Shown: positions 16,203 through 29,745 of the stretch, piece after piece
Position numbering within the stretch: position 1 is the first letter of the stretch
How the letters are laid out: every line of letters starts with the position of its first letter
NCBI RefSeq assembly: GCF_021730435.1
Contig: NZ_JABWGX010000033.1
Coordinates: 1 to 52,708 of the forward strand
Reading direction: 5' to 3'
DNA from: Xanthobacter agilis
GTDB taxonomy: Bacteria > Pseudomonadota > Alphaproteobacteria > Rhizobiales > Xanthobacteraceae
DNA: 52,708 bases
The notes under the pieces: model-generated
What the model was told of the DNA's origin: nothing
Databases searched by the model: none
Seen by the model: only the letters and a program-made list of their open reading frames with translations
Translations under genes and position numbers: made by a program

Positions 16203-16486
16203 GGTGTGCCTCAAATGCCGATGTCGCCGAAAAACCGCCCGGCAAAGAACCGTAGGGCGTCGGCAGCGCGGCCCAATATGATAAGGAAATCCGTCAGCGA
16301 CGCGTGCCGTCTCGAATCGTAAGCCGATTCGACGGAACATGTGGCTGGGGCATGGCTCGGATGTCATTCATCCCGTCCAGCCCGTTGCGGATGGTCAGTT
16401 GCAGATGGTCGGGTATAAGCGCGGGTGACTGCGTCCACGGGGGTGATCGCATTCCGCCTGCCGCGCCGAAGCGGAAAGGCCGGGGC
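16203..16486. other. Divergent intergenic region before the Mla operon
   Basis: A 284-base spacer between the epimerase gene and the permease gene. It should hold the Mla-operon promoter, but I found no convincing -35/-10 pair. No gene is supported. Confidence 0.45.
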
Positions 16487-17668
16487 ATGTCCGGCCAGGA
16501 TCCGCCGGCCGACAGACAACCGGGTCCTGGAGAGGTCGCGTTGCCCCATACCTCACTGATTTCCGTGCATACTCAGGATGATCGCCTGACCGTCGCGGGA
16601 CGGGGTGAGTGGACGTCCGAACATGCGGACGAGCTGGAGCATGCCGTGGGTGAGGCGGTGGCAGCATACCCTTCGCCCAAGGGGGTCGATTTCGACCTCG
16701 CCGGCGTGGAGCGCATGGACACCTTCGGGGCGCTGCTGTTCGAGCGCCTGCGCCGGGCCTGGGATGGGCAGGGCATCGCCACGGCGATCCAGGGCCTCTC
16801 GCCGCGCTACAAGATCCTGCTGGACGAAATGGCCCGCGCCGGTCGCGACCCGCGCCCGGCGGCCCGGCGGCAGGAGGCCATCGTGGAGCGGCTGGGCCAC
16901 TCGGTGGTCGACACCGGCATCGATGCCCTGGCCTTGCTCAATTTCATCGGCGCCACCATCGCCGCCATGATGCGGGTGGTGATGAGGCCGCGCACCTTCC
17001 GCTTCACGGCGATGGTGAACCAGCTCGATCGGGTGGGCTTCCGCGCGGTGCCCATCATCATCCTCATCACGTTCCTGATCGGCTGCATCCTGGCGCAGCA
17101 GGGCATCTTCAATTTCCGCCGCTTCGGGGCGGAAATCTATGTGGTGGACATGGTGGGCGTGCTGGTGCTGCGCGAGCTCGGCGTGCTCATCGTCGCCATC
17201 ATGATCGCCGGCCGCTCGGGCAGCGCCTATACGGCGGAACTGGGCTCCATGCGCATGCGCGAGGAGATGGACGCCCTGCGCGTGATGGGCTTCGATCCGA
17301 TCGAGGTGCTGGTGGTGCCGCGCATCATGGCGCTGGTCATCGCCTTGCCGATGCTCACCTTCATCGGCTCCATGGCCGCCATCTTCGGGGCCGGGCTGGT
17401 ATCGTGGGGGTATGGCGGCATCACGCCCGAAATCTTCATGCAGCGCCTCAAGAGCGCCATCGACCTCGACCAGTTCAACGTCGGCATGATCAAGGCCCCG
17501 TTCATGGCGGCGACCATCGGCATCGTGGCGTGCCTGGAGGGCATGCGGGTGGGCGGCAGCGCGGAATCCCTGGGTGCCCACACCACGGAATCGGTGGTGA
17601 AGGCGATCTTCCTGGTGATCGTCATGGACGGCGTGTTTGCCATGTTCTTCGCCGCGATCAACATGTGA
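16487..17668 (+). CDS. mlaE: MlaE-family lipid ABC transporter permease with N-terminal STAS domain
   Basis: Inner-membrane permease of the phospholipid transport system that maintains outer-membrane lipid asymmetry. The ATG at 16487 begins MSGQDPPADRQPG; earlier in-frame codons encode unnatural sequence. Residues about 20-110 form a STAS domain (GVDFDLAGVERMDTFGALLFERL), which in E. coli is the separate protein MlaB. The rest is the MlaE permease with five or six membrane segments and the family signature ELGVLIVAIMIAGRSGSAY plus ELGSMRMREEMDALRVMG. It is followed after seven bases by the ATPase gene, then the MCE protein and a lipoprotein, a complete operon. Confidence 0.92.
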   Translation: MSGQDPPADRQPGPGEVALPHTSLISVHTQDDRLTVAGRGEWTSEHADELEHAVGEAVAAYPSPKGVDFDLAGVERMDTFGALLFERLRRAWDGQGIATAIQGLSPRYKILLDEMARAGRDPRPAARRQEAIVERLGHSVVDTGIDALALLNFIGATIAAMMRVVMRPRTFRFTAMVNQLDRVGFRAVPIIILITFLIGCILAQQGIFNFRRFGAEIYVVDMVGVLVLRELGVLIVAIMIAGRSGSAYTAELGSMRMREEMDALRVMGFDPIEVLVVPRIMALVIALPMLTFIGSMAAIFGAGLVSWGYGGITPEIFMQRLKSAIDLDQFNVGMIKAPFMAATIGIVACLEGMRVGGSAESLGAHTTESVVKAIFLVIVMDGVFAMFFAAINM

Positions 17669-17675
17669 GGCGGGG

Positions 17676-18485
17676 ATGGACGCACGCACCTCACCCGCCG
17701 ACGCTCCCGCCGCCAACGGCAAGGAAGCCATCATCAAGGTCCGCGACATCGTCGTGGGGTTTGGCGACCGCATCGTGCTGAACCACCTGGACCTCGACGT
17801 GTACCGGGGCGAGATCCTCGGCTTCGTGGGCACCTCCGGCGGCGGCAAGTCGGTGCTCACGCGCACGATCCTGGGTCTGGTGCCCAAGCGTTCCGGGCTG
17901 GTGGAGGTGTTCGGGGAAAATCTCGACGACCTCAACGAGACGCAGCGCTCGGCGGTGGAACGGCGCTGGGGCGTGCTGTTCCAACAGGGCGCGTTGTTCT
18001 CATCGCTGACGGTCAAGCAGAACATCCAGTTCCCGTTGCGGGAAAATCTCAAGCTTTCGCAAGGGCTGATGGACGACATCGCGTTCGCCAAGATCGAGAT
18101 GGTGGGCCTGAAGCCGGACGTGGCGGAAAAGCTGCCCTCGGAATTGTCGGGCGGCATGATCAAGCGCGCGGCGCTTGCCCGCTCGCTGGCGCTCGACCCG
18201 GAAATCCTGTTTCTGGACGAGCCCACCTCGGGGCTCGACCCCATCGGCGCGGGTGAGTTCGACGAGCTCATCCGCACGTTGCAGCAGACTTTGGGGCTCA
18301 CCGTTTTCATGGTAACTCACGACCTGGATAGTCTGCACACGGTCTGCGATCGCATCGCGGCCTTGGCAGAGGGGAAAGTGATCGCACAGGGCACCATCGA
18401 AACCATGATGCAGGCGACGCATCCGTGGCTGCGCGCCTATTTCCACGGCGCACGGGCACGGGCGGTGATGCAGGGGCGCGGCTGA
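17676..18485 (+). CDS. mlaF: MlaF-like ABC transporter ATPase
   Basis: Cytosolic ATPase that powers the Mla lipid transporter. The ATG at 17676 is preceded by a GAGGCGGGG site. The 269-residue protein has Walker A GTSGGGKSVL near residue 55, a Q-loop in VLFQQGALFSSLT, the signature LSGGMIKRAALARSLA, Walker B ILFLDEPTSGLDP, and a switch His in VTHDLDS. The GALFSSLTV segment after the Q-loop is typical of MlaF. It is translated right after mlaE. Confidence 0.94.
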   Translation: MDARTSPADAPAANGKEAIIKVRDIVVGFGDRIVLNHLDLDVYRGEILGFVGTSGGGKSVLTRTILGLVPKRSGLVEVFGENLDDLNETQRSAVERRWGVLFQQGALFSSLTVKQNIQFPLRENLKLSQGLMDDIAFAKIEMVGLKPDVAEKLPSELSGGMIKRAALARSLALDPEILFLDEPTSGLDPIGAGEFDELIRTLQQTLGLTVFMVTHDLDSLHTVCDRIAALAEGKVIAQGTIETMMQATHPWLRAYFHGARARAVMQGRG

Positions 18486-18522
18486 AGGCGGCCGTCGCGG
18501 TCAGGGCAATCGAGAGCAAGGC

Positions 18523-19446
18523 ATGGAAACACGGGCCAATTACACCATCATCGGAGCCTTCACGCTGGCCATCATCGTGGCCGCGTTCGGCTTCGTGTAC
18601 TGGTTCGCCGGGCCGCAGGACTCCAGTGCCCGCAAGGCCTATGAGATCGTTTTCGACGGCTCGGTGGCCGGTCTGCGCCAGGGCAATTCGGTGCTGTTCA
18701 ACGGCATTCCCGTGGGCCAGGTGCAGAGCCTCAACCTGGTGCCCAACCAGCCCGGGCAAGTGCTGGTGCGGGTGAGCATCGACAGGTCGGTGCCGGTTCT
18801 GTCGGATGCGCGCGCGGGCCTTGAATCCCAGGGCATCACCGGCATCGTCGCGGTGGGCATCCGCGGCGGCAAGCCGGACGCGCCGCCTTTGCCCATCGGG
18901 CCGGACGGCGTTCCGCGGATTCCCTCCGACGGCGGCACCGGCATGGCCGGTCTGCTGAGCGCGGCGCAAGGCGTGGCGCGGAAGATCGAGGTGGTGCTGC
19001 AGGCCATCAATCCCGAGGAGATCGCCGCCATCATCAAGAATGTGGAAGTGTTCTCGAAGGCGGTGGCGGACCGCTCCAATGACATCGGCACCCTTATCGA
19101 GCAATCCAAGAATCTGGTGACGCAGCTGAACGACGTCGCCGGCAAGGTGGATACGGTGGTGGACAATCTGAAGGCGGCGACCGAGGACAAGAACGGGCTT
19201 CTCGCCCAGGCGACCGATGCGGCGACCTCCGTGCGTCAGCTCGCGGACAATTTGGACCAGCGCACCGCGCTCCTCACCAACGAGATTGCCCGCTTCACCG
19301 GGCCGGGCCTGCGCCAGTATGAAGCCTTGGCGACGGACGGGCGGCGGACCCTGAGCGAGATCGACCGCGTCCTGCGCAGCATTGAGCGCAATCCGCAGCA
19401 ATTCATTATGGGCGGCGGTCAATCCGTGCCGACCTACAGGCGATGA
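18523..19446 (+). CDS. mlaD: MlaD-like MCE-domain substrate-binding protein
   Basis: Inner-membrane-anchored periplasmic protein of the MCE family that forms a hexameric ring carrying lipids between membranes. The 307-residue protein has one N-terminal membrane anchor (TIIGAFTLAIIVAAFGFVYWFAG), an MCE domain at about residues 38-115 (YEIVFDGSVAGLRQGNSVLFNGIPVG), then a long helical region ending with SEIDRVLRSIERNPQQFI. Ring-forming helices after the MCE domain are consistent with the family. Its last four bases overlap the start of the lipoprotein gene as ATGA. Confidence 0.92.
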   Translation: METRANYTIIGAFTLAIIVAAFGFVYWFAGPQDSSARKAYEIVFDGSVAGLRQGNSVLFNGIPVGQVQSLNLVPNQPGQVLVRVSIDRSVPVLSDARAGLESQGITGIVAVGIRGGKPDAPPLPIGPDGVPRIPSDGGTGMAGLLSAAQGVARKIEVVLQAINPEEIAAIIKNVEVFSKAVADRSNDIGTLIEQSKNLVTQLNDVAGKVDTVVDNLKAATEDKNGLLAQATDAATSVRQLADNLDQRTALLTNEIARFTGPGLRQYEALATDGRRTLSEIDRVLRSIERNPQQFIMGGGQSVPTYRR

Positions 19447-20087
19447 GCAGCAGCATGACCCACGCGCGCAGGAGCCGTTCCCCTGTCCTGAGCGGCCTCA
19501 AGGGCTGGGGTTGGATGGCCCGAGCCGGAGTGCTCTGCCTTCCCCTGGTGCTGGCGGCCTGCGGTTCGGCGCCCACGCCCACCTTCAATCTCTCCGCTCC
19601 GCAGGGCTTTACCGCCGGCGGGCGGGGCGACGGGCAACTCGTCGTGGCGCCGCCGTATGCCTTGGCTGCGTTGAACACCGACAAGATCTATGTCGAACCC
19701 GCGGCGGGACAGATCGCCTATCTCGGCGATGCCCAATGGGGCGACAGCCTGCCGTCGCTGCTTCAGGCGCGCATCATCCAGTCATTTGAAAACGGCAGCC
19801 GGCTGAAGCGGGTGGCCCGCCCCGGCGAGGGCATCATCGCCGATTACCAATTGGTTACGGACATCCGCATGTTCGGCCTGCGCATCACGCCCGAGGGGCC
19901 GGTGGCGGTGGTGGAGCTGTCGGCCAAGCTGATCGGCAACCAGAGCGGCCGCATTCTGGCGGCGCAGGTGTTCAAGGCACAGGTTCCGGCCACGGGAAGC
20001 TCCGGGCCGGAGGCGACCGCCGCGCTCGACACGGCGTCCGATCAGGTGCTGGTCGCCATGGTGCGCTGGGCCTCGGGCAAGTTCTGA
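19443..20087 (+). CDS. ABC-type transport auxiliary lipoprotein (PqiC/MlaC-associated type)
   Basis: Predicted lipoprotein of the ABC_trans_aux family found at the end of Mla/Pqi-type operons in alphaproteobacteria. A signal peptide ends in the lipobox LVLAAC near residue 40, followed by a folded periplasmic domain of about 170 residues with YVEPAAGQIAYLGDAQWGDSLPSLLQARI and a YQLVTDIRMF strand. It is likely outer-membrane anchored and could receive lipid from the MCE ring. It overlaps mlaD by four bases. Confidence 0.85.
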   Translation: MSSSMTHARRSRSPVLSGLKGWGWMARAGVLCLPLVLAACGSAPTPTFNLSAPQGFTAGGRGDGQLVVAPPYALAALNTDKIYVEPAAGQIAYLGDAQWGDSLPSLLQARIIQSFENGSRLKRVARPGEGIIADYQLVTDIRMFGLRITPEGPVAVVELSAKLIGNQSGRILAAQVFKAQVPATGSSGPEATAALDTASDQVLVAMVRWASGKF

Positions 20088-20449: not shown

Positions 20450-21223
20450 TCAGATGCCGACCTTGTTCAATTCGCCATAGACTTCGTCCGCCCAGGTGCG
20501 CAGATCCATGAGGCCGGCATAAGCGGACCAGATCTCGATGCCGAACTTTTCGGCAAGATCGTTCTCGGTCGCGGAAAGGGCCTCTTCCACGGGCGTATAG
20601 GTCCGCTCCAGATGCGACCACAGTTCCGAGGTGCAACGTGGCAGATCGATCAGGTGGAGATTGCGGCCGGCGGCCGCCTTCTCGACACGGGCGAAGGCCT
20701 GGGGATCAAAGGTGCCGCCGACCGCATTGCGCACGACGATGATGTTCGCCACCGGCAGCGCACCGCCCACCACCACATCCTCCACCAAGGTCGCGACGTT
20801 CTCGATGGAGTGGGACTCGGGCTTGGTGATGACCAGGAGGTCGATGTCAGGCGAGTTACGCTGCTGCATGATGTGGGCGACGCGCCGGTGATGCGCCCAT
20901 TGCACCAGTTGCGGCACCACATTCGCGCCGAGATCCAGCACCGCGCCGCCGGTGAGCAGCAGGCCGCCGAAACGATCCCAGTAGCGCAGCGGGGCGTTGG
21001 CGTCGTTCTCGGTCTTGGTGGAGGCAAGGGCGGAGCCGATGCCCAGTTCCAGAACCTTGGTGGGGAAGAACTTTCCAATCTTCGAATGGCCGGTGCCGTC
21101 GGTGAAGTCCGCGGCCACGAGCTTGTAGGCCAGCTCGCGCTTTTTCAGGGCGGAATACACCATCTGGGCAAGGGTGGTCTTGCCCTGGCCCCCGGCATAC
21201 GCGGCGCAGATATAGGTCTTCAT
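20450..21223 (-). CDS. P-loop ATPase of ParA/MinD type with deviant Walker A
   Basis: Begins MKTYICAAYAGGQGKTTLAQ, so residues 10-17 are a Walker A of the KGGxGKTT class in which the first signature lysine is replaced by alanine. Later segments fit the fold: GGAVLDLGANVVP near residue 110 as a Walker A'/B-like strand, IDLLVITKPESHSIENVA, and ANIIVVRNAVGG. The 257-residue length is normal. The GGGAG ribosome-binding site supports the ATG at 21223 over an earlier TTG/ATG at 21250. I do not recognise the exact family; some conjugation and positioning ATPases look similar. It is co-directional with and 140 bases downstream of the giant polar protein, which suggests a shared positioning function. 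Confidence 0.65.
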   Translation of the reverse strand: MKTYICAAYAGGQGKTTLAQMVYSALKKRELAYKLVAADFTDGTGHSKIGKFFPTKVLELGIGSALASTKTENDANAPLRYWDRFGGLLLTGGAVLDLGANVVPQLVQWAHHRRVAHIMQQRNSPDIDLLVITKPESHSIENVATLVEDVVVGGALPVANIIVVRNAVGGTFDPQAFARVEKAAAGRNLHLIDLPRCTSELWSHLERTYTPVEEALSATENDLAEKFGIEIWSAYAGLMDLRTWADEVYGELNKVGI

Positions 21224-21363
21224 GGATGGAAGGCTCCCTGACTGGGCCATGCGACGCCCGCAGGCGTTAGGCTGCGGGCAGTTGAAGCGAAATTATATTA
21301 CACGAATAAGTCCATACCGCCGGCGCGACACCACGTCGCCAGCGGTCGCGGCACGCGGCCGCC

Positions 21364-24300
21364 TCAATCGAGGCGGCCGGCGATGTGCGCGAGCATGGTG
21401 TAGACCTTGCCGGGGTCGGAAGAGAGATAGGTGCGGGTCAGCACGTTACCGTTCTCTCCGGCGCTCACCTGCTCCAGAAGGTCGTCGTATTCGGCAATGT
21501 AGTGGTCTACCTGGTCGTGGAAGGCCGGTTCGTCCTGGTACCGCCGACGCAGGGTCTCGAAGGCTTGCAGGCCCTGCAGGGTGTAGATGCGCCGGGTGAA
21601 GGCGGCATGCTGGCCGTTCAACTGGCGATCCCAGCAATCGGCGGCCACGGTCGCGTCCACCAGCCGGCCGATCTCGGCGGTGAGGGCCTCCACCGTCTCC
21701 GGCACCGGGCGGGCGGCGGCGCGGCGCGGCGGGACAAGGCTTTCCGGGCGGCGGCGCGGGGCAGGGCCGGTCTCCCGCGGGTGGAGATCGTCCGTGGCAA
21801 GGGCCAGCAGCTCGCTCAGAAGCTCCTCCCGGTCCGGGATCGCCGCGATCTGCGCGGGGGCCTCCGCAGTGCCCGTCGCGTCTACCGCCACCGTTGCGTC
21901 CTCGGCAACCGCCGGAGCGACCGCGGCGACGTCAGCCTCGACCGGCAGGTCCGGTGCCTGTTCGAGGGGGAGCGGCGCCGGGGTCTCAACGACCGGCTCG
22001 GATGGCTGGTGAGCCGATGCCTGCGGCACGAGGGCCGCCAGCTCGCGGGCCACCGAGTCGAGGGCCAGATCCTGCGCCGTGGCACGGGCGCCGGCCTCGA
22101 CCACATCGAACGCCTGACCCTGGCGGGCGACGATCTCGTTCAGCTCCGCGAGCGCCTTGATCTGCTCGGCCACGGCGTGGCGCATGCTGGCGGCGGTCGC
22201 CTCGGTTTCCGCCGGCAGCTCCATGAGGCCCCGCTTCATTTCTGTGCGGGCCAGCTCGATCGCCTGCTGCACCTCTTCGGTGGTGCGCTTCAGCTCGTGC
22301 GCGGCCTCCGTGAACTGGCTTCCGGTGTCGCCGAACATGCGGCGCACGTCCTGGATGGCCGCCTCATACGTCTGCCGGAGCGCGGCCGCGACCCGCTCGC
22401 GCTCCTGCTCGGCGGCGGTGCGCAGATGTTCCACCTGGCTTTCGAGGGCCTGGGTGGAGCCCGAGGCGGCCTCGGCCACCACGCCGGCAATCTCGCGGGC
22501 GCGGCTCTGCGCGGCCTTGAAGCTGTCGTCGAGCATGGCGTGGAAGTGCTGCATGCGGCCGTCCATGTCGGCCACGCGGGCGGTCATGGCGCCGGCGAGT
22601 TCCGCCATGGCGGCGCGGCGGGCGTTGAGCGTAGCCTCGACCCGCTCCTGGGTGACGCCCAGGGCCTGGGACGCTTCGCCCAGGGAGCGGCTCTGCTGCT
22701 CCAGGCGCTCGGTGAGGGTGCTGATCTCCGACAACGTGCTGCCGGACACACTCTTGAGCGAGCTGATCTGAGCATCGAAGCGCGCGGCGGTGGCGTCGGC
22801 GGTCTCGCCGATGGCGCCGACGGTGGCGCTGAAGTCCTCGACCTGACGGGCAAAGGTGCCTGAAAAGTCGCCGAGGTTGCTCACGGCATTGGCCATGGCG
22901 CTCTGGAAGGTGGAATTGGCGTCGCCCAGGCGCTCGATGATGGCCTGCACATCGCCCTTGAGACCGGTGTTGGTGGCGGTGATCTCGGCGACGGCGCGCT
23001 GGCTGGTGCGCTCCAGGGCCACCAGGAAGGCCCCGTTCTTGTCGTCGATCAGGTGGGCGATCTCGTTGAGTCGGGTGCCCAGCGCGTCGGCCACCTTTTC
23101 CGCGTGTCCGGTCAGGGCCTGGCCCACATTGAGCGACAGGGCCGTGAGCGAGCGCTCGACCTCCGCCGCGTTGCTCTTGAGGGTGCCGGAGACGGCTTCC
23201 ATGCGGCGTGCCAGACCGTCCGCGACCGCGCCGCCGCGCGCCTCCAGATCGGCCGCGACGCCGTCGAGGCGGCCGATGACCAGCTCCTCGATGTGGTGCA
23301 CACGGCCATCCAGCAGGCTGGCGATGTCCTGGGCACGGGCGCCAAGGGCGCGCTGGACCACTTCCGCGCGGTCCATCAGCGTCTCGCCCAGCACCTTGTT
23401 GCGGCTGGCGAAGAAGCCGTCGAGGGTCTCCATCGACTTGTCCAGGGCGGACGTGGTGCTGGTGGCGCCCTCGACGAAGGTGCGCGCCAGATCCACGGTG
23501 CGGCTGGCGAGGGTCTCGGTGAGGCTCTGGGCGCGCTGGTCGAGGGTCTGCTCGATGCGGGCGATGCGCTGGTCCAGGGTCCCCGCCACATTGGAGGTGG
23601 TGGAGGCGAGGCGCTCGTCGAGATTGTCCACGGCGAGCCGCAGATTTTCGTTCACCTCGTTCACCCGATGATTGATCTGGTCGATCAGCTCGGGCGCCTG
23701 CACCTTCACCGTGTTGTCGAAGGCCTTGACCCCGTCGTTCACCGCGCGGGCGAAGGCGCTGCCGTCGTGGTGCAGCCGCTCGGCCAGCTCGGCACCCTGG
23801 ACCGTGAAGGCCTCGTCGATCGCCCGGAGCTGGGTGCCAAGCATCTCCTTGATGGCGTCGCCCTTGCTGCCCATGGCATTGACCAGGGTGTCGGCGGTCT
23901 CGCGGAAGGCGTCGGTGACCTTGCTGCCGCGTGCGCCGATGGCCTTGGTGACTTGGTTGCTCACCACCGACAGGCGGTCGGTGATGTCGGAGCCGGCGGC
24001 GGCGAGGGAGGTCGCGATCTCGGCGCCCTTCTCGGTGAGGTTGGCGCCGGCCTGGGCCACCGAACGGTCGAGCGCGGCGGCAATGCGATCCCCGCTCTCG
24101 ACGAGGCGCTGGGGCAAAGCGTCGCCGCTCACGGTGATGGCGTCGATGATGCGGGCGCTGGTGTCCTCGATGCGGTCGGCGATCTCGGCGCCACGGATGG
24201 CCACGGTCTCGCCGATGACCTCGCCGCTGCGCTCCAGCTGCAGCACCAGATCGGTGCCTCGGGTGTCGAAATCAGCGAGGGCGGCCTCGGTGGCGGCATG

Positions 24301-26835
24301 GAAGGCGTCGCTGGCGGCCATCACGCGATCGGCAACCTCGGCGCCGCGTGCGCCCAGGGTGTCGGCGATGGTTTCCCCGGCCTTTTCGATCTGGTCGGCG
24401 AGGGCGCTGCCGCGGCTGCCGAAATCGGCGACGCTGGCCTCGGCGGTCGCACGGAAGGCGTCGCTGGCGGCCATCACACGATCGGCCACCTCGGCGCCGC
24501 GTGCCGCCAGGGTGTCGGCGATGGTTTCTCCGGCCTTTTCGATCTGGCCGGCGAGGTCGCTGCCGCGGCTGCCGAAATCGGCGACGCTGGCCTGCGTGGC
24601 CGCGCGGAAGGCGTCGCTGGCGGCGCCGATGGTCTGGCCGACGGCGTCGGCGGTCTTGTCGAGCTGAAGCGCCAGCGCGCTGCCGTGATCGCCGAAATCG
24701 GCGACCGTGGCTTCGGTGGCGGCGCGCAGGGCGTCGCCAGCGGCACCGATGGTCTGGCTAACGGCATCGGCGGTCTTGTCGAGACGCAGCGCCAGCGCGC
24801 TGCCGTGATCGCCAAGGGTCGCGATCGCGGCTTCGGTGGCGGTGCGCAGGGTGTCGCTGGCGGCGCCGATGGTCTGGCTGACGGCGTCGGCGGTCTTGTC
24901 GAGACGCAGCGCCAGTTCACTGCCGTGATCGCCGAGGGTGGCAACGGCGGCTTCGGCGGTGGCGCGGAAGGCGTCGCTGGCGGCTTCGAGGCTGCCGCTC
25001 ACGGTGGCGGCGCTCTTTTCGAGCTGGGCGGAGACGTCGCTGCCACGGGCGCCGAAGTCGGCCAACGCGGCGTCGGCGGTGGTGCGCAGGGTGGCGCCCG
25101 CCTCGCTGAGGATCTCGCCCACTGCGAGCCCGCTCTTTTCCAGCTGGGCGGCCAATTCCGTTCCGCGTGCGCCGAAATCGCCCATCGCGGCTTCGGTGGT
25201 GTTCCGGAAGGCTTCGCTGGCGGCTCCCACGGTCTGGCTGACGGCGCTCCCGCTCTTGTCGAGATGGGCGGCCAGCGCGCTGCCGTGATTGCCGAAGTCG
25301 GTCGCGGCGGCCTCGGCGGCGGTGCGGAAGGCGTCGCCGGCGGCGGTGATGCGCGCCGCCACTTCGGCGCCACGGGCGCCGATGGCTTCGCTGACCGCCT
25401 CGCCGCTCTTGTCGAGCTGAAGCACCAGGTCATTTCCACGGCTGCCGAAATCGGCGACGATGGATTCCGCGGCGGCGCGGATGGCGCCGCTGGCGGCGTC
25501 GATGCGGGCGGCGATCTCGGCGGTGAGGTTGCCGCCGTTCTCGGCCAGGGTGTCGCTGATGTTGGTCTTCAGCCGCTCGATATTGACGTTGACGTCGTCG
25601 CCCCAACGGTCGATCAGCACCGCCACTTCGGAGGTGGACGACAGGAGGTTGGTGGCCAGATCGTCGGTCCGCGACTTCAGGGTCTTCACCAGCACGTCGG
25701 CGGAGTTGGAGAGATCCTGGCGGATCTCGGTGCCGGTCACCTGCAGCCGGTCGATCAGCTCGGTGCCCTTGGCGGTGAGACCGTCGATCATGGAATCGCC
25801 GACCCGGGCGAGGGCGGAAGTGATGTGCTCGCCCTTTTCGCCGAGGATCTCGGTGACGCGCTCGCTGGCGGTCAGCATGCTCTCCTGGATGCGCGCGGAG
25901 GCGTCCCGCACCTCGTTGGAGAGCACGGTCTCGGCCCCGGCGATGCCTTCGCGCAGGCGCTCGGTCTCGAGCTGGATGTTCTGGCGCTCGGCCTGGAGGT
26001 CGTCGATCAGGGTGCGGATGCGGACCTCGTTGTCCCCATAGGCCCGCTCGAGCAGCGAGACTTCCGTGCGCACCATGGCTTCCAGCTCGCCGGCGCGGGT
26101 CACGGCGCGGTCGAGGCCGTCGCCCATGGCCGCCACCTCGCGGCGCACCGCCTGGCCCACATTCACCACCGTGTCGGTGGCGAGGGCCTCGGGCTCGGCG
26201 AGCCGCATGGCGACCTCGGTCATGGCGCGGGCGATGCCCTGAAGCTCCTGCGAGCGGCGGACCAGCGCCGCCAGGCCGAAAAAGGCGAGGGGCGGCACCA
26301 GGATGGACGCGAACACACCGAGCAGCGCCGGGGAATTCAGCAGGGACTGGAGCCCTTCCGAATTGGCCATCAGGCCCCGCTGATAGGTGTAGGCGAGGGC
26401 GATGCCCACCGCGATCCACACCAGGGCGGCCGCGGTCGCCCACCAATAGGGGGCGGTCGAGGCGGGACGGCGCAGGCGGCTGAGCATCAAGCCGATATTC
26501 TGGCGGTCGTCATTGGCGGCCCGCCGCTCGGGCGTCTCGCGGGGGCGGCGCGGTCCTTCGCGCCGGCTGTCCTCGGCCGCGGGCGTGGTGCGTGGGGCCC
26601 GGCGCCCGATGGGCTGCGCGGGCACCGGCCGTTCGTCCGCGGGCGCCGGCGCCTCGGTGCTCGCCTCCGGTTCGGTGGCTGGCGGCTCCGTGGCCACCTC
26701 GACCGGAGGGGCCTGCTCTTTCGCCTCCTTGGCGGCCTGGGCCTGCTGGGCATTGTCCAGCTCCAGCGTCAGCGCCTCCTGAATCGCCGAAAGAGCGACC
26801 TCGGTCGGATCCTGGACCTTCATCGGAGTCTTCAT
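21364..26835 (-). CDS. Giant membrane-anchored coiled-coil protein, growth pole ring (GPR/RgsE)-like
   Basis: An 1,823-residue protein. An acidic, Pro/Ala-rich cytosolic head (about residues 1-125) is followed by two membrane segments at about 130-151 and 169-192. Then come some 1,400 residues of heptad-like helix rich in Ala, Asp, Glu and Ser, a Pro-rich linker, and a compact C-terminal part of about 110 residues (from [18 protein letters not shown] to the end). This architecture matches the Growth Pole Ring protein of Agrobacterium and RgsE of Sinorhizobium (related to TipN), which organise polar growth. The match is by architecture and remembered sequence style, not a search. Residues encoded by 24155-25485 are tandem repeats. 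ATG at 26835 ([12 protein letters not shown]) is preferred; an in-frame start exists at 26880. Confidence 0.75.
24155..25485 (-). repeat. About ten tandem repeats of 120 or 153 bp inside the giant gene
   Basis: Units of 40 residues of the form [20 protein letters not shown]...[16 protein letters not shown] alternate with 51-residue units that add an 11-residue [11 protein letters not shown] insert. I count six or seven short and three or four long copies. The copies between about 24600 and 24960 line up base for base with a 120-bp period and are the most alike, suggesting recent duplication by unequal recombination. Confidence 0.85.
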
Positions 26836-27134: not shown

Positions 27135-27455
27135 ATGGTCGCACTCACTTTTATCGAATTCAACGGCACCTCTCACCAGGTCGACGCACCCGAAGGCTCG
27201 ACCGCCATGGAGGCCGCCGTGCGCAATGGCGTGCCCGGCATCGTCGGGGAATGCGGGGGCGCCTGCGCCTGCGCCACCTGCCACGTCTATGTGGACGAGG
27301 CGTGGGTGGGGAAGGTGGGCGAGCCTTCCGAGATGGAGGAAGGGATGCTCGATTTTGCCAGCGAGGTGAGCCCCAGTTCGCGCCTGTCCTGCCAGATCCG
27401 GCTGACGGCGGAACTGGACGGCCTGGTGCTGCGCATGCCGGAGAGCCAGGGCTGA
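27135..27455 (+). CDS. [2Fe-2S] ferredoxin, adrenodoxin type
   Basis: Small electron carrier of 106 residues starting [21 protein letters not shown]. The cluster ligands are C40, C46, C49 and C86 in the pattern C-x5-C-x2-C...C ([18 protein letters not shown] and RLSCQIRL), which is the adrenodoxin/Fdx class rather than the plant type. C44 is an extra cysteine inside the loop. Such proteins feed electrons to cytochromes P450, iron-sulfur assembly or ring-hydroxylating enzymes. The gene stands alone; its partner is not in the window. Confidence 0.93.
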
Positions 27456-27538: not shown

Positions 27539-28423
27539 ATGACGACCGTCACTGCTTCTGCCGAGAGACTTCAAGCCGTGTTGCCCGCATCCCACCCGGC
27601 GCCGACGATCCTCGTGTTCGATTCCGGCGCCGGCGGCCTCTCCGTGTTCCGCGAGGTGGCCCGCGTCCGTCCCGATGCGCGCTTCGTCTATGCCGCCGAC
27701 GATGCCGGCTTTCCCTATGGCGACCTGAGCGACCAGGCGCTCGTTGCCCGCGTGAACGAGGTGGTCGGCCGCCTCATCGCCGCGGTGCGACCGGCGCTCG
27801 TGGTGATCGCCTGCAACACCGCCTCCACCGTGGTGCTGCCGAGCCTGCGCGCGCGCCATGCCCTGCCGTTCGTCGGCACGGTGCCGGCGGTGAAGCCGGC
27901 CTGCGCGGCGTCCCTCAGCGGCCGGGTCAGCATTCTGGCCACCCCCGGCACGGTGCGCCGGGACTACACCGCCGACCTCATCCGACAATTCTCCGCCCAG
28001 TGCGAGGTGACCCTTGTGCCGGCTCCCCGGCTCGCCGCCTTGGCCGAGGCGGCGCTCGCCGGCCGAAGCGTGGCCGATGACGCCATCCGGACCGAGATCG
28101 CCCCCTGCTTCGTCGCGGCGGGTGGTCGGCGGACCGATACGGTGGTCTTGGCGTGCACCCACTATCCGCTTCTGCGCGACCGCCTGGAGCGCCTTGCGCC
28201 GTGGCCGGTCTCCTGGGTGGACCCGGCGCCCGCCATCGCGCGGCGGGTGACGCAGCTTCTGGGGCCGGCGCCGGCGGACCTTGCGCCGGATGCTCCGGTG
28301 CGGCTGATATCCACCGCGCGGCCGCTCGACAGCGCACGCGTCGCGACAATCATCGGCCGAAAGGTGGCGCCACCGGAAATTCTGGGGTCGCCCGGTGTGC
28401 GGCCTTGGGCGGCCGCCAGCTAG
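27539..28423 (+). CDS. murI: Glutamate racemase MurI
   Basis: Cytosolic enzyme that converts L-glutamate to D-glutamate for peptidoglycan. The 294-residue protein has the N-terminal phosphate/substrate loop FDSGAGGLSV, both catalytic cysteines in VIACNTAST and VLACTHYPLL, and the FPYGDLSD segment. An N-terminal extension of about 22 residues precedes the core. It is followed by a lytic transglycosylase gene, so two peptidoglycan genes are adjacent. Confidence 0.93.
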   Translation: MTTVTASAERLQAVLPASHPAPTILVFDSGAGGLSVFREVARVRPDARFVYAADDAGFPYGDLSDQALVARVNEVVGRLIAAVRPALVVIACNTASTVVLPSLRARHALPFVGTVPAVKPACAASLSGRVSILATPGTVRRDYTADLIRQFSAQCEVTLVPAPRLAALAEAALAGRSVADDAIRTEIAPCFVAAGGRRTDTVVLACTHYPLLRDRLERLAPWPVSWVDPAPAIARRVTQLLGPAPADLAPDAPVRLISTARPLDSARVATIIGRKVAPPEILGSPGVRPWAAAS

Positions 28424-28506
28424 ATCATTGAGTTTTCGCATGTCTTCACGCGAACCGGTCGCCCCTTCGCTTGAAAATGCGCTCGGCAATTTAAGGAGAG
28501 GGTTCC

Positions 28507-29745
28507 ATGGCCGTTCGGGTCGACCGCCGCGCCGTCTCGTTCGGCCTCCTGGGCACGGTGCTGCTCGCGGGCGCGCCCGCCTTTGCGCAGAAGGCGGCCA
28601 AGCCGTTTCCCGCCTGGGTGGAGCAATTCCGCGCCAGGGCGCGGGCGCGGGGCATCTCCGATGCCACTTACAATCGTGTGTTCCAGGGTCTGAAGCCGGA
28701 CACCAGCGTCTATGCCCAGGACCGGGCGCAGCCTGAGTTCACCGAGCAGACGTGGCAGTATCTCAACCGCCGCGTCTCCGACTGGCGCATCGCCACCGGC
28801 AAGGAGCGGGCGCGCCAATATGCGGGGCTGTTCAGCCGGATCGAGCAGGCGTTCGGCGTCGATCGGCGGGTGATGCTCGGCTATTGGGGCATGGAAAGCG
28901 CCTTTGGCGACGTGCTCGACAATCCCAAGCACATGAAGCCGGTGTTCCCCTCCCTCGCCGCGCTCGCCTGGGGCGATCCGCGGCGGCGCAGTTACTGGGA
29001 GGCGGAATTGCTGAACGCGCTGGTCATCGTCGAGCGCGGCTGGGGTACCCCAGGGGAAATGACCGGCTCCTGGGCCGGCGCCATGGGGCACACCCAATGG
29101 ATGCCCGAAGTCTGGCTCAACATGGGGGTGGATTTCGACGGCGATGGCCGCATCTCCCCCTATGGCAAGCCGGATGATGCGCTGGCCGGCACCGCCAATT
29201 ACCTCGTCCGCCGCGGCAAGTACCGTCGCGGCGAGCCCTGGGGCGTGGAGGCGAAGCTGCCGCAGGGCTTCAACACGGCCTTCGCTGACAACAAGAGCAA
29301 CCGGCCGCTGAGCCAATGGGGCGACCTCGGGGTGACGACGGTGGAGGGGGGCGCGCTCTCCGGGTATGACGAGCCGGCGCGCCTGTGGCTGCCGGGCGGA
29401 ACCGGAGGGCCGGCGCTGCTGCTGTTCCATAATTTTTATGCGGTACGCTCCTACAATCCCTCCTCCAACTATGCCCTTGCCGTGGTGCACCTGGGCGACC
29501 GCATCATGGGGGAGGGGCCGTTCGTGACGCCGTGGCCCGGCGGCGAGCGGGCCTTGACCCTGGCCGAGGTGCAGGAGGTGCAGCAGCGCCTCACCGCCGC
29601 CGGCTTCGACACCGGCGGTACCGATGGACGCGTGGGCACCGACACCATGCGCGCGGTGCGGGCCTTCCAACAGAAGGCCGGCATCAGCCCCGACGATGGC
29701 TATGCCTCCATCACGGTGCTCCATGCGCTGCGGCAGGGGCGATAG
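28507..29745 (+). CDS. Lytic murein transglycosylase (MltB/SLT_2 family) with peptidoglycan-binding domain
   Basis: Periplasmic enzyme cutting murein glycan strands to 1,6-anhydromuramic products. A signal peptide (VSFGLLGTVLLAGAPAFA) follows a twin arginine, so Tat export is possible. The SLT_2 domain spans about residues 35-330 with the catalytic Glu in GYWGMESAFGD, GAMGHTQWMPE and FHNFYAVRSYNPSSNYALAV. The C-terminal 60 residues form a PG_binding_1 domain (EVQEVQQRLTAAGFDTGGTDG). An AAGGAGAGG ribosome-binding site precedes ATG 28507. It is 412 residues, normal for the class. Confidence 0.93.
   Translation: MAVRVDRRAVSFGLLGTVLLAGAPAFAQKAAKPFPAWVEQFRARARARGISDATYNRVFQGLKPDTSVYAQDRAQPEFTEQTWQYLNRRVSDWRIATGKERARQYAGLFSRIEQAFGVDRRVMLGYWGMESAFGDVLDNPKHMKPVFPSLAALAWGDPRRRSYWEAELLNALVIVERGWGTPGEMTGSWAGAMGHTQWMPEVWLNMGVDFDGDGRISPYGKPDDALAGTANYLVRRGKYRRGEPWGVEAKLPQGFNTAFADNKSNRPLSQWGDLGVTTVEGGALSGYDEPARLWLPGGTGGPALLLFHNFYAVRSYNPSSNYALAVVHLGDRIMGEGPFVTPWPGGERALTLAEVQEVQQRLTAAGFDTGGTDGRVGTDTMRAVRAFQQKAGISPDDGYASITVLHALRQGR

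Follow-up and report, generated by a model that had tools for sequence, protein, structure and literature searches.

Tandem repeats and helical register in a probable growth pole ring protein (GPR/RgsE ortholog) of Xanthobacter

The window analysed here is a stretch of 52,708 nucleotides from Xanthobacter agilis, which makes up one entire contig (NZ_JABWGX010000033.1) of a 4.81-Mb genome in 66 contigs. It carries a long gene at 21364-26835 which, judged from its sequence, is supported as the Xanthobacter ortholog of the growth pole ring protein, an already-known family represented by GPR in Agrobacterium tumefaciens and RgsE in Sinorhizobium meliloti. The product is very probably a cytoplasmic scaffold at the growing pole, anchored in the membrane, with a long helical tract that can be extended by in-frame tandem duplication, such that the lengths that persist are mostly close to a whole number of helical turns. 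The new element is the repeat expansion: the repeats form an extra stretch in this lineage.

Family membership and architecture

The open reading frame (ORF) consists of 1,823 codons plus a stop, and starts with an ATG at 26835 on the minus strand. A preliminary description of this DNA had the coordinates and the length right, and left the strand unstated. The gene is read on the minus strand because the plus strand in that frame contains an internal stop, which rules out a plus-strand reading of 21364-26835. The parts of the gene are as follows.

21364..26835, minus strand: putative gpr/rgsE ortholog, 1,823 residues; ORF, homologous at both ends and over much of its length to an S. meliloti coding sequence (CDS) of RgsE length
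26386..26442, minus strand: first predicted membrane segment, peak at residues 132-150 (19-residue hydropathy peak of 1.72)
26296..26352, minus strand: second predicted membrane segment, peak at residues 162-180 (19-residue hydropathy peak of 1.62), in the N-terminal module that aligns to the RgsE-length CDS
22036..26190, minus strand: hendecad-periodic helical tract, residues 216-1600 (period 3.655, three prolines, match to PF01442)
21706..22035, minus strand: proline-rich linker, residues 1601-1710, defined by its 18 prolines
21367..21705, minus strand: conserved C-terminal module, residues 1711-1823, found across the order and ending in [22 protein letters not shown]

As read from these data, the protein is composed of two N-terminal hydrophobic segments, an amphipathic hendecad tract, a proline-rich linker and a C-terminal module, and is encoded in single copy. 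The two membrane segments of the preliminary description coincide with the two hydrophobic peaks. It had also proposed about 1,400 residues of coiled coil. There is indeed a long tract of 1,385 residues that is poor in proline (three, whereas residues 1-215 have 23 and residues 1601-1710 have 18), but it is a hendecad rather than a heptad structure: its hydrophobic period is 3.655 (a hendecad being 11/3), with a power of 53.7 compared to at most 10.2 in 50 shuffled sequences, and a heptad coiled coil (3.5) is excluded by the measured period. The protein had been called giant, and is as long as stated, but its size is not unusual for the family, in which its tract ranks 38th of 88 counted from the shortest.

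Membership of the GPR/RgsE class was likewise part of the preliminary description, together with a conserved C-terminal module. Comparison of the termini with a Sinorhizobium CDS of RgsE length, along the lines of the check proposed there, found homology at both ends, which upholds the assignment as far as homology is concerned. The matching S. meliloti CDS has 2,089 codons and is annotated as 'kinesin'. The N-terminal module matches it at 41% over 150 residues (E = 1e-29) and the C-terminal module at 45% over 113 residues (E = 5e-31), while a BLASTP comparison at full length gives 26% over 1,507 columns (E = 1e-69). RgsE is reported to have 2,089 residues and to be a homolog of GPR with 42% identity (PMC7327166). 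Of 199 genomes of the order (Rhizobiales), 190 have the C-terminal module, each with one match, and its profile matches 90 of 240 genomes sampled over the class, other orders included. The helical tract passes the PF01442 model in 12 stretches (154.5 bits, cut-off 90). The family assignment stands because of both termini, the full-length match, the spread of the C-terminal module, the neighbouring ferredoxin gene and an MreB score below cut-off, the last two being described below.

The order of parts, both termini, the period of 3.655 and a divergent ferredoxin gene close by are all shared with RgsE, which has been termed 'large and repeat-containing' (PMC7327166). The RgsE-length CDS of S. 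meliloti also has internal duplications, of 29 and 106 residues. It differs in having a tract about 280 residues longer, built from other repeat units, and the Xanthobacter protein is known from sequence alone. The likeness to GPR itself (Atu1348) is taken from its published description, which gives two N-terminal membrane segments, PF01442-like helices and a proline-rich region ahead of the C-terminus, at residues 1,890-2,000; its C-terminus is required for function (PMC8262873). Set against the Xanthobacter protein by description only, GPR differs in length (2,115 residues compared to 1,823). No statement of homology between GPR and TipN was found in the literature searched, which included passages of two papers.

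Repeats in the Xanthobacter protein

Tandem Repeats Finder reports a 153-bp array at 24255-24624 (score 593) and a 120-bp array at 24571-25345 (score 628), so that the 120- and 153-bp repeats of the preliminary description are both present. In the protein register there are ten anchors (eight DF-x-x-R/H-G and two TLGDHG), and their nine spacings consist of three of 51 residues and six of 40. The repeat features are as follows.

24283..25461, minus strand: insertion of 393 residues relative to 11 other Xanthobacter genomes, approximately residues 459-851, the start varying with the pairwise alignment
25300..25452, minus strand: one 51-residue (153-bp) unit, residues 462-512, from anchor spacing
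24580..25299, minus strand: six 40-residue (120-bp) units, residues 513-752, from anchors and Tandem Repeats Finder
24121..24579, minus strand: three 51-residue segments, residues 753-905, from anchor spacing, the last merging into single-copy sequence

The tract has a net excess of 393 residues over each of the 11 congeners, which are themselves equal in tract length. Five of the 11 alignments place this difference in a single gap, and the remaining six divide it over two or three. A further congener, G209, was excluded, as its match covers 32 residues only. The closest relative is Xanthobacter sp. NM-59, with 78% identity in aligned residues. It lacks exactly 240 residues (511-750), in a single gap whose flanking blocks, of 410 and 851 residues, align without gaps, and has a net excess of 153 residues (3 x 51) over ten of the 11 others, the pair with HJP_bin50 being outside this count. 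NM-59 has four anchors with three spacings of 51, and 160-residue slices from three other species contain one anchor each, DFSTRG or EFSTRG. The series of ten, four and one anchors implies that 393 is 3 x 51 + 6 x 40. Copy number thus differs between species, being 3 x 51 + 6 x 40 in the window and 3 x 51 in NM-59, with the 11 congeners in the short state. The preliminary description had proposed that copy number may vary between strains and so change ring size or spacing; the variation seen here is between species. Measured by an anchor rule, the tract has 954-1,004 residues in the 11 genomes, 1,116 in NM-59 and 1,378 in the window protein. Among the 11 congeners, insertions and deletions in the listed pairs above 60% identity fall near residues 1,170-1,210, not far from where the tract ends.

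The units of the window are 57-91% identical to each other in DNA over a 120-nt core, the most similar being those starting at residues 753 and 804 (91%). Identity at third codon positions is 90% between these two units and 75-78% among units 633, 673 and 713, compared to 68-72% for the flanks against NM-59. This indicates that some of the copying or homogenisation is younger than the split from NM-59.

Helical register across the order

We compared 88 orthologs from the order having both termini in one frame, out of 92 tried (L075, L083, L095 and L098 were left out). Their hydrophobic period ranges from 3.635 to 3.67, or from 3.625 to 3.67 when the tract is bounded by a fixed rule, under which it is at least 3.63 in 87 of them. 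Relatives from other orders that carry the C-terminal module have a median period of 3.57, and only one of 48 reaches 3.63. These were taken from 50 proteins drawn from the class search, mostly frames near or above 1,000 in length, of which the fixed rule left out two as too short.

Duplications within the tract (at least 80% DNA identity over 90 nt) are found in 48 of the 88 orthologs. Removal of lengths that are sums of smaller units leaves 47 family-period pairs, which are the elementary unit lengths; they count sequences rather than independent events, with family labels from the tool, which for three named Rhizobiaceae may be shared with another family. Forty of the 47 are 0 or 7 modulo 11 (32 multiples of 11, and eight of the form 11n+7), where the chance expectation is 2/11. 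Expressed in turns at 3.65 residues, 39 of the 47 fall within 0.2 turn of a whole number, compared to a mean of 17.9 and a maximum of 31 in 20,000 draws from the null. At other thresholds, with multiples included, 62 of 73, 68 of 80 and 90 of 108 offsets are 0 or 7 modulo 11. All 108 offsets of up to 400 nt (in 120-nt windows) are in frame, which is expected of any surviving coding repeat. The lengths of gaps against distant family members (Aquabacter, G212 and G217) also lean to 11n and 11n+7; they were set aside in favour of the DNA-level duplications, because an aligner may favour such gaps in a periodic protein. No account of a rule for unit length was found in the literature searched, which was limited to open-licence papers, and the words 'repeat', 'hendecad' and 'amphipathic' are absent from the main text of PMC8262873.

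These observations suggest a mechanism. By analogy with A. tumefaciens and S. meliloti, the protein would gather at the growth pole and organise the synthesis of wall and membrane there. Its tract may be pictured as a stack of helical turns, in which a narrow hydrophobic stripe, bordered by a single basic one, would be the surface for pairing with other helices. In-frame tandem duplication would lengthen the tract, and lengths of 11n or 11n+7 would tend to persist, presumably by selection, as they would hold the stripe in register beyond the insert. Units of 40 and 51 residues would then make 11 and 14 turns, the two types being one hendecad apart. GPR is reported to be essential for polar growth of A. 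tumefaciens (PMC8262873), and a register rule makes the building of a ring by a helical protein of about 2,000 residues approachable through simple changes in length. The natural length variants of Xanthobacter could serve directly to ask whether ring or cell diameter is set by the length of the tract. More tentatively, GPR-type scaffolds might be length-adjustable rods under a register constraint, in which the split between a period of 3.66 in this order and about 3.57 in relatives from other orders would mark a change in supercoil of the polar scaffold, and rod length would tune the geometry of the pole between species.

Deletions of 20-21 residues have been made in A. tumefaciens GPR, of which A-IV-4cc interfered most while A-IV-1cc complemented well (PMC8262873). 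They correspond to about 5.5-5.75 turns and are thus out of register, yet A-IV-1cc complements, and we do not interpret them as phase effects; they are a lead at most.

Several points weigh against the reading just given. Sixty of the genomes compared within the order were picked by hand for long open frames. Seven of the 47 periods are not 0 or 7 modulo 11, namely 36, 80, 94, 120, 224, 412 and 426, and involve families f24 and f29. Eight of the 47 are more than 0.2 turn away from whole turns at 3.65, every one of them at least 94 residues long, where a small error in the period accumulates. Duplications outside the order, found in two of the 48 relatives, have units of 58 and 69 residues, and the 69-residue unit makes 19.3 turns at its protein's own overall period of 3.575, contrary to the rule. 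The period within the stretch of 69-residue repeats is 3.62-3.635, but this carries little weight because a tandem repeat forces such a period. Among in-order proteins with frames of up to 1,650 residues, only two of 24 have duplications. The overall rate of duplication therefore tracks length, and the idea that duplications are commoner inside the order was dropped, as these short frames (2/24) are to be compared with 2/48 outside. The polar role in Xanthobacter is based on homology to GPR/RgsE rather than on localisation or phenotype. Finally, the AlphaFold2 model of the C-terminal module is poor (pLDDT 54.3).

The quality of this model was too low to identify a fold by structure search. The module's profile matches three chains in the PDB at E = 0.0013-0.023 over 31-35 positions, one of them a designed helical repeat protein, which was judged to be helix similarity. 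Matches to ZorA-like NCBIfam models are far below threshold (41.7 bits, cut-off 250) and were ascribed to coiled-coil similarity. In families f24 and f29 (L108-L113) there are additionally units of 36, 80, 94 and 120 residues, none of which fits 11n or 11n+7.

A further point against selection for register is that the phase rule may arise from unequal exchange among existing 11-residue repeats. Exchange between repeats of 11 or 22 residues yields lengths of 11n without any selection on phase or length, making the unit lengths a mutational by-product. This is a real possibility, although we think it doubtful on balance. It accounts directly for the 32 family-unique periods that are exact multiples of 11, and is in accord with the in-frame offsets, but not with the eight periods of the form 11n+7. 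Nor does it explain why unit lengths of 36, 80 and 120, which belong to neither class, are within 0.2 turn of whole turns at 3.65, though 94 is not. In addition, the eleven congeners have a single tract length even though some pairs are just 61% identical, which implies that length is not drifting freely among them.

It is unlikely that the tract is a lipid-binding surface of apolipoprotein type, with which GPR would sort or sequester lipids and which the repeats would enlarge. The PF01442 match clears its threshold by a wide margin, and the ApoLp-III model is likewise exceeded (44.7 bits, cut-off 36.3), both of which count against helix pairing. The sole matches of the whole protein to solved structures at E of 0.01 or less are two chains of apolipoprotein A-IV (E = 0.007 and 0.008). 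A role of GPR in lipid organisation has been proposed (PMC8262873), and Mla-type lipid transport genes are located downstream of gpr. However, the PF01442 match may stem from a common 11-residue periodicity: the likeness to apolipoprotein A-IV is one of amphipathic periodicity that passes a family cut-off, whereas the Xanthobacter protein has its basic residues mainly on one flank, has a membrane anchor and is several-fold longer.

Class-A apolipoprotein helices have basic residues at both flanks of the non-polar face. This trait was looked for in the 88 orthologs, with the helix phase estimated from a scale on which charged residues all count the same, and was absent: every one of the 88 has more basic residues to one side of the hydrophobic stripe, always the same side, with medians of 22.3% and 7.1% for the two flanks (18.2% and 8.3% in the window protein). 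In shuffled tracts of 40 orthologs the difference has that sign in 22. By comparison, a 199-residue stretch of apolipoprotein A-IV (3s84) has basic residues on both flanks, at 25.0% and 43.8%. The width of the stripe, three of twelve thirty-degree bins in the window protein and two in the apolipoprotein stretch, has no power to discriminate. The one-sided basic stripe thus favours helix-helix packing over apolipoprotein-like lipid binding, as far as a sequence comparison can indicate, and together with the hendecad period it argues for re-examining the apolipoprotein label.

It is highly improbable that the repeat difference is an assembly artefact, through collapse of the arrays in NM-59 or their misassembly in the window: NM-59 is a draft (cov_12.7) and the window genome is in 66 contigs, but the units are too divergent to collapse easily, and congeners G199, G201, G210 and G211 (in 1, 1, 5 and 2 contigs) share the short state with the drafts.

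Gene neighbourhood and MreB

Upstream of gpr is a divergent gene, as follows.

27140..27455, plus strand: 2Fe-2S ferredoxin gene, start approximate; ORF with PF00111, a conserved neighbour

Of 31 loci retrieved around the orthologs, 29 have a match to the 2Fe-2S ferredoxin gene. In S. meliloti the ferredoxin gene is in identical divergent order, with an Hpt gene in between.

The window genome has three matches to the MreB model, the best of which (46.9 bits) is under the curated cut-off of 365.75. This agrees with the mutual exclusion of MreB and RgsE/GPR reported in PMC7327166. MreB is above the curated cut-off in two of 41 genomes searched, the window genome not being among them. These two genomes, G001 and G011 of the order, also hold the C-terminal module, at odds with strict mutual exclusion.

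On the plus strand at 27539-29745 are wall-synthesis neighbours, namely glutamate racemase (TIGR00067, above cut-off) and a lytic transglycosylase with a peptidoglycan-binding domain, which were matched in six and five of the 31 loci respectively. The Mla-type genes (MlaE, ABC ATPase, MlaD and auxiliary lipoprotein) are at 16304-20087 on the plus strand, convergent with gpr. They were matched near gpr in 17, 20, 18 and 18 of the 31 loci, respectively; two of the ABC ATPase matches are weak (32-35%), and some counts are limited by the length of the stretch.

Immediately downstream of gpr, at 20450-21250 on the minus strand, is an ORF of 266 codons. A search against Pfam and NCBIfam gave no match for it. 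Its frame is kept in nine loci (59-92%), and an overlapping plus-strand ORF is less conserved (45-69%).

The 3.72-Mb record of S. meliloti Ak57 designated 'plasmid pSymB' (CP090106.1) contains folP, cytochrome b/c1 genes and an RgsE-length gene, and has the look of a chromosome under the wrong label. The same may apply to three Sinorhizobium records (3.52 Mb) and one Shinella record (4.6 Mb).

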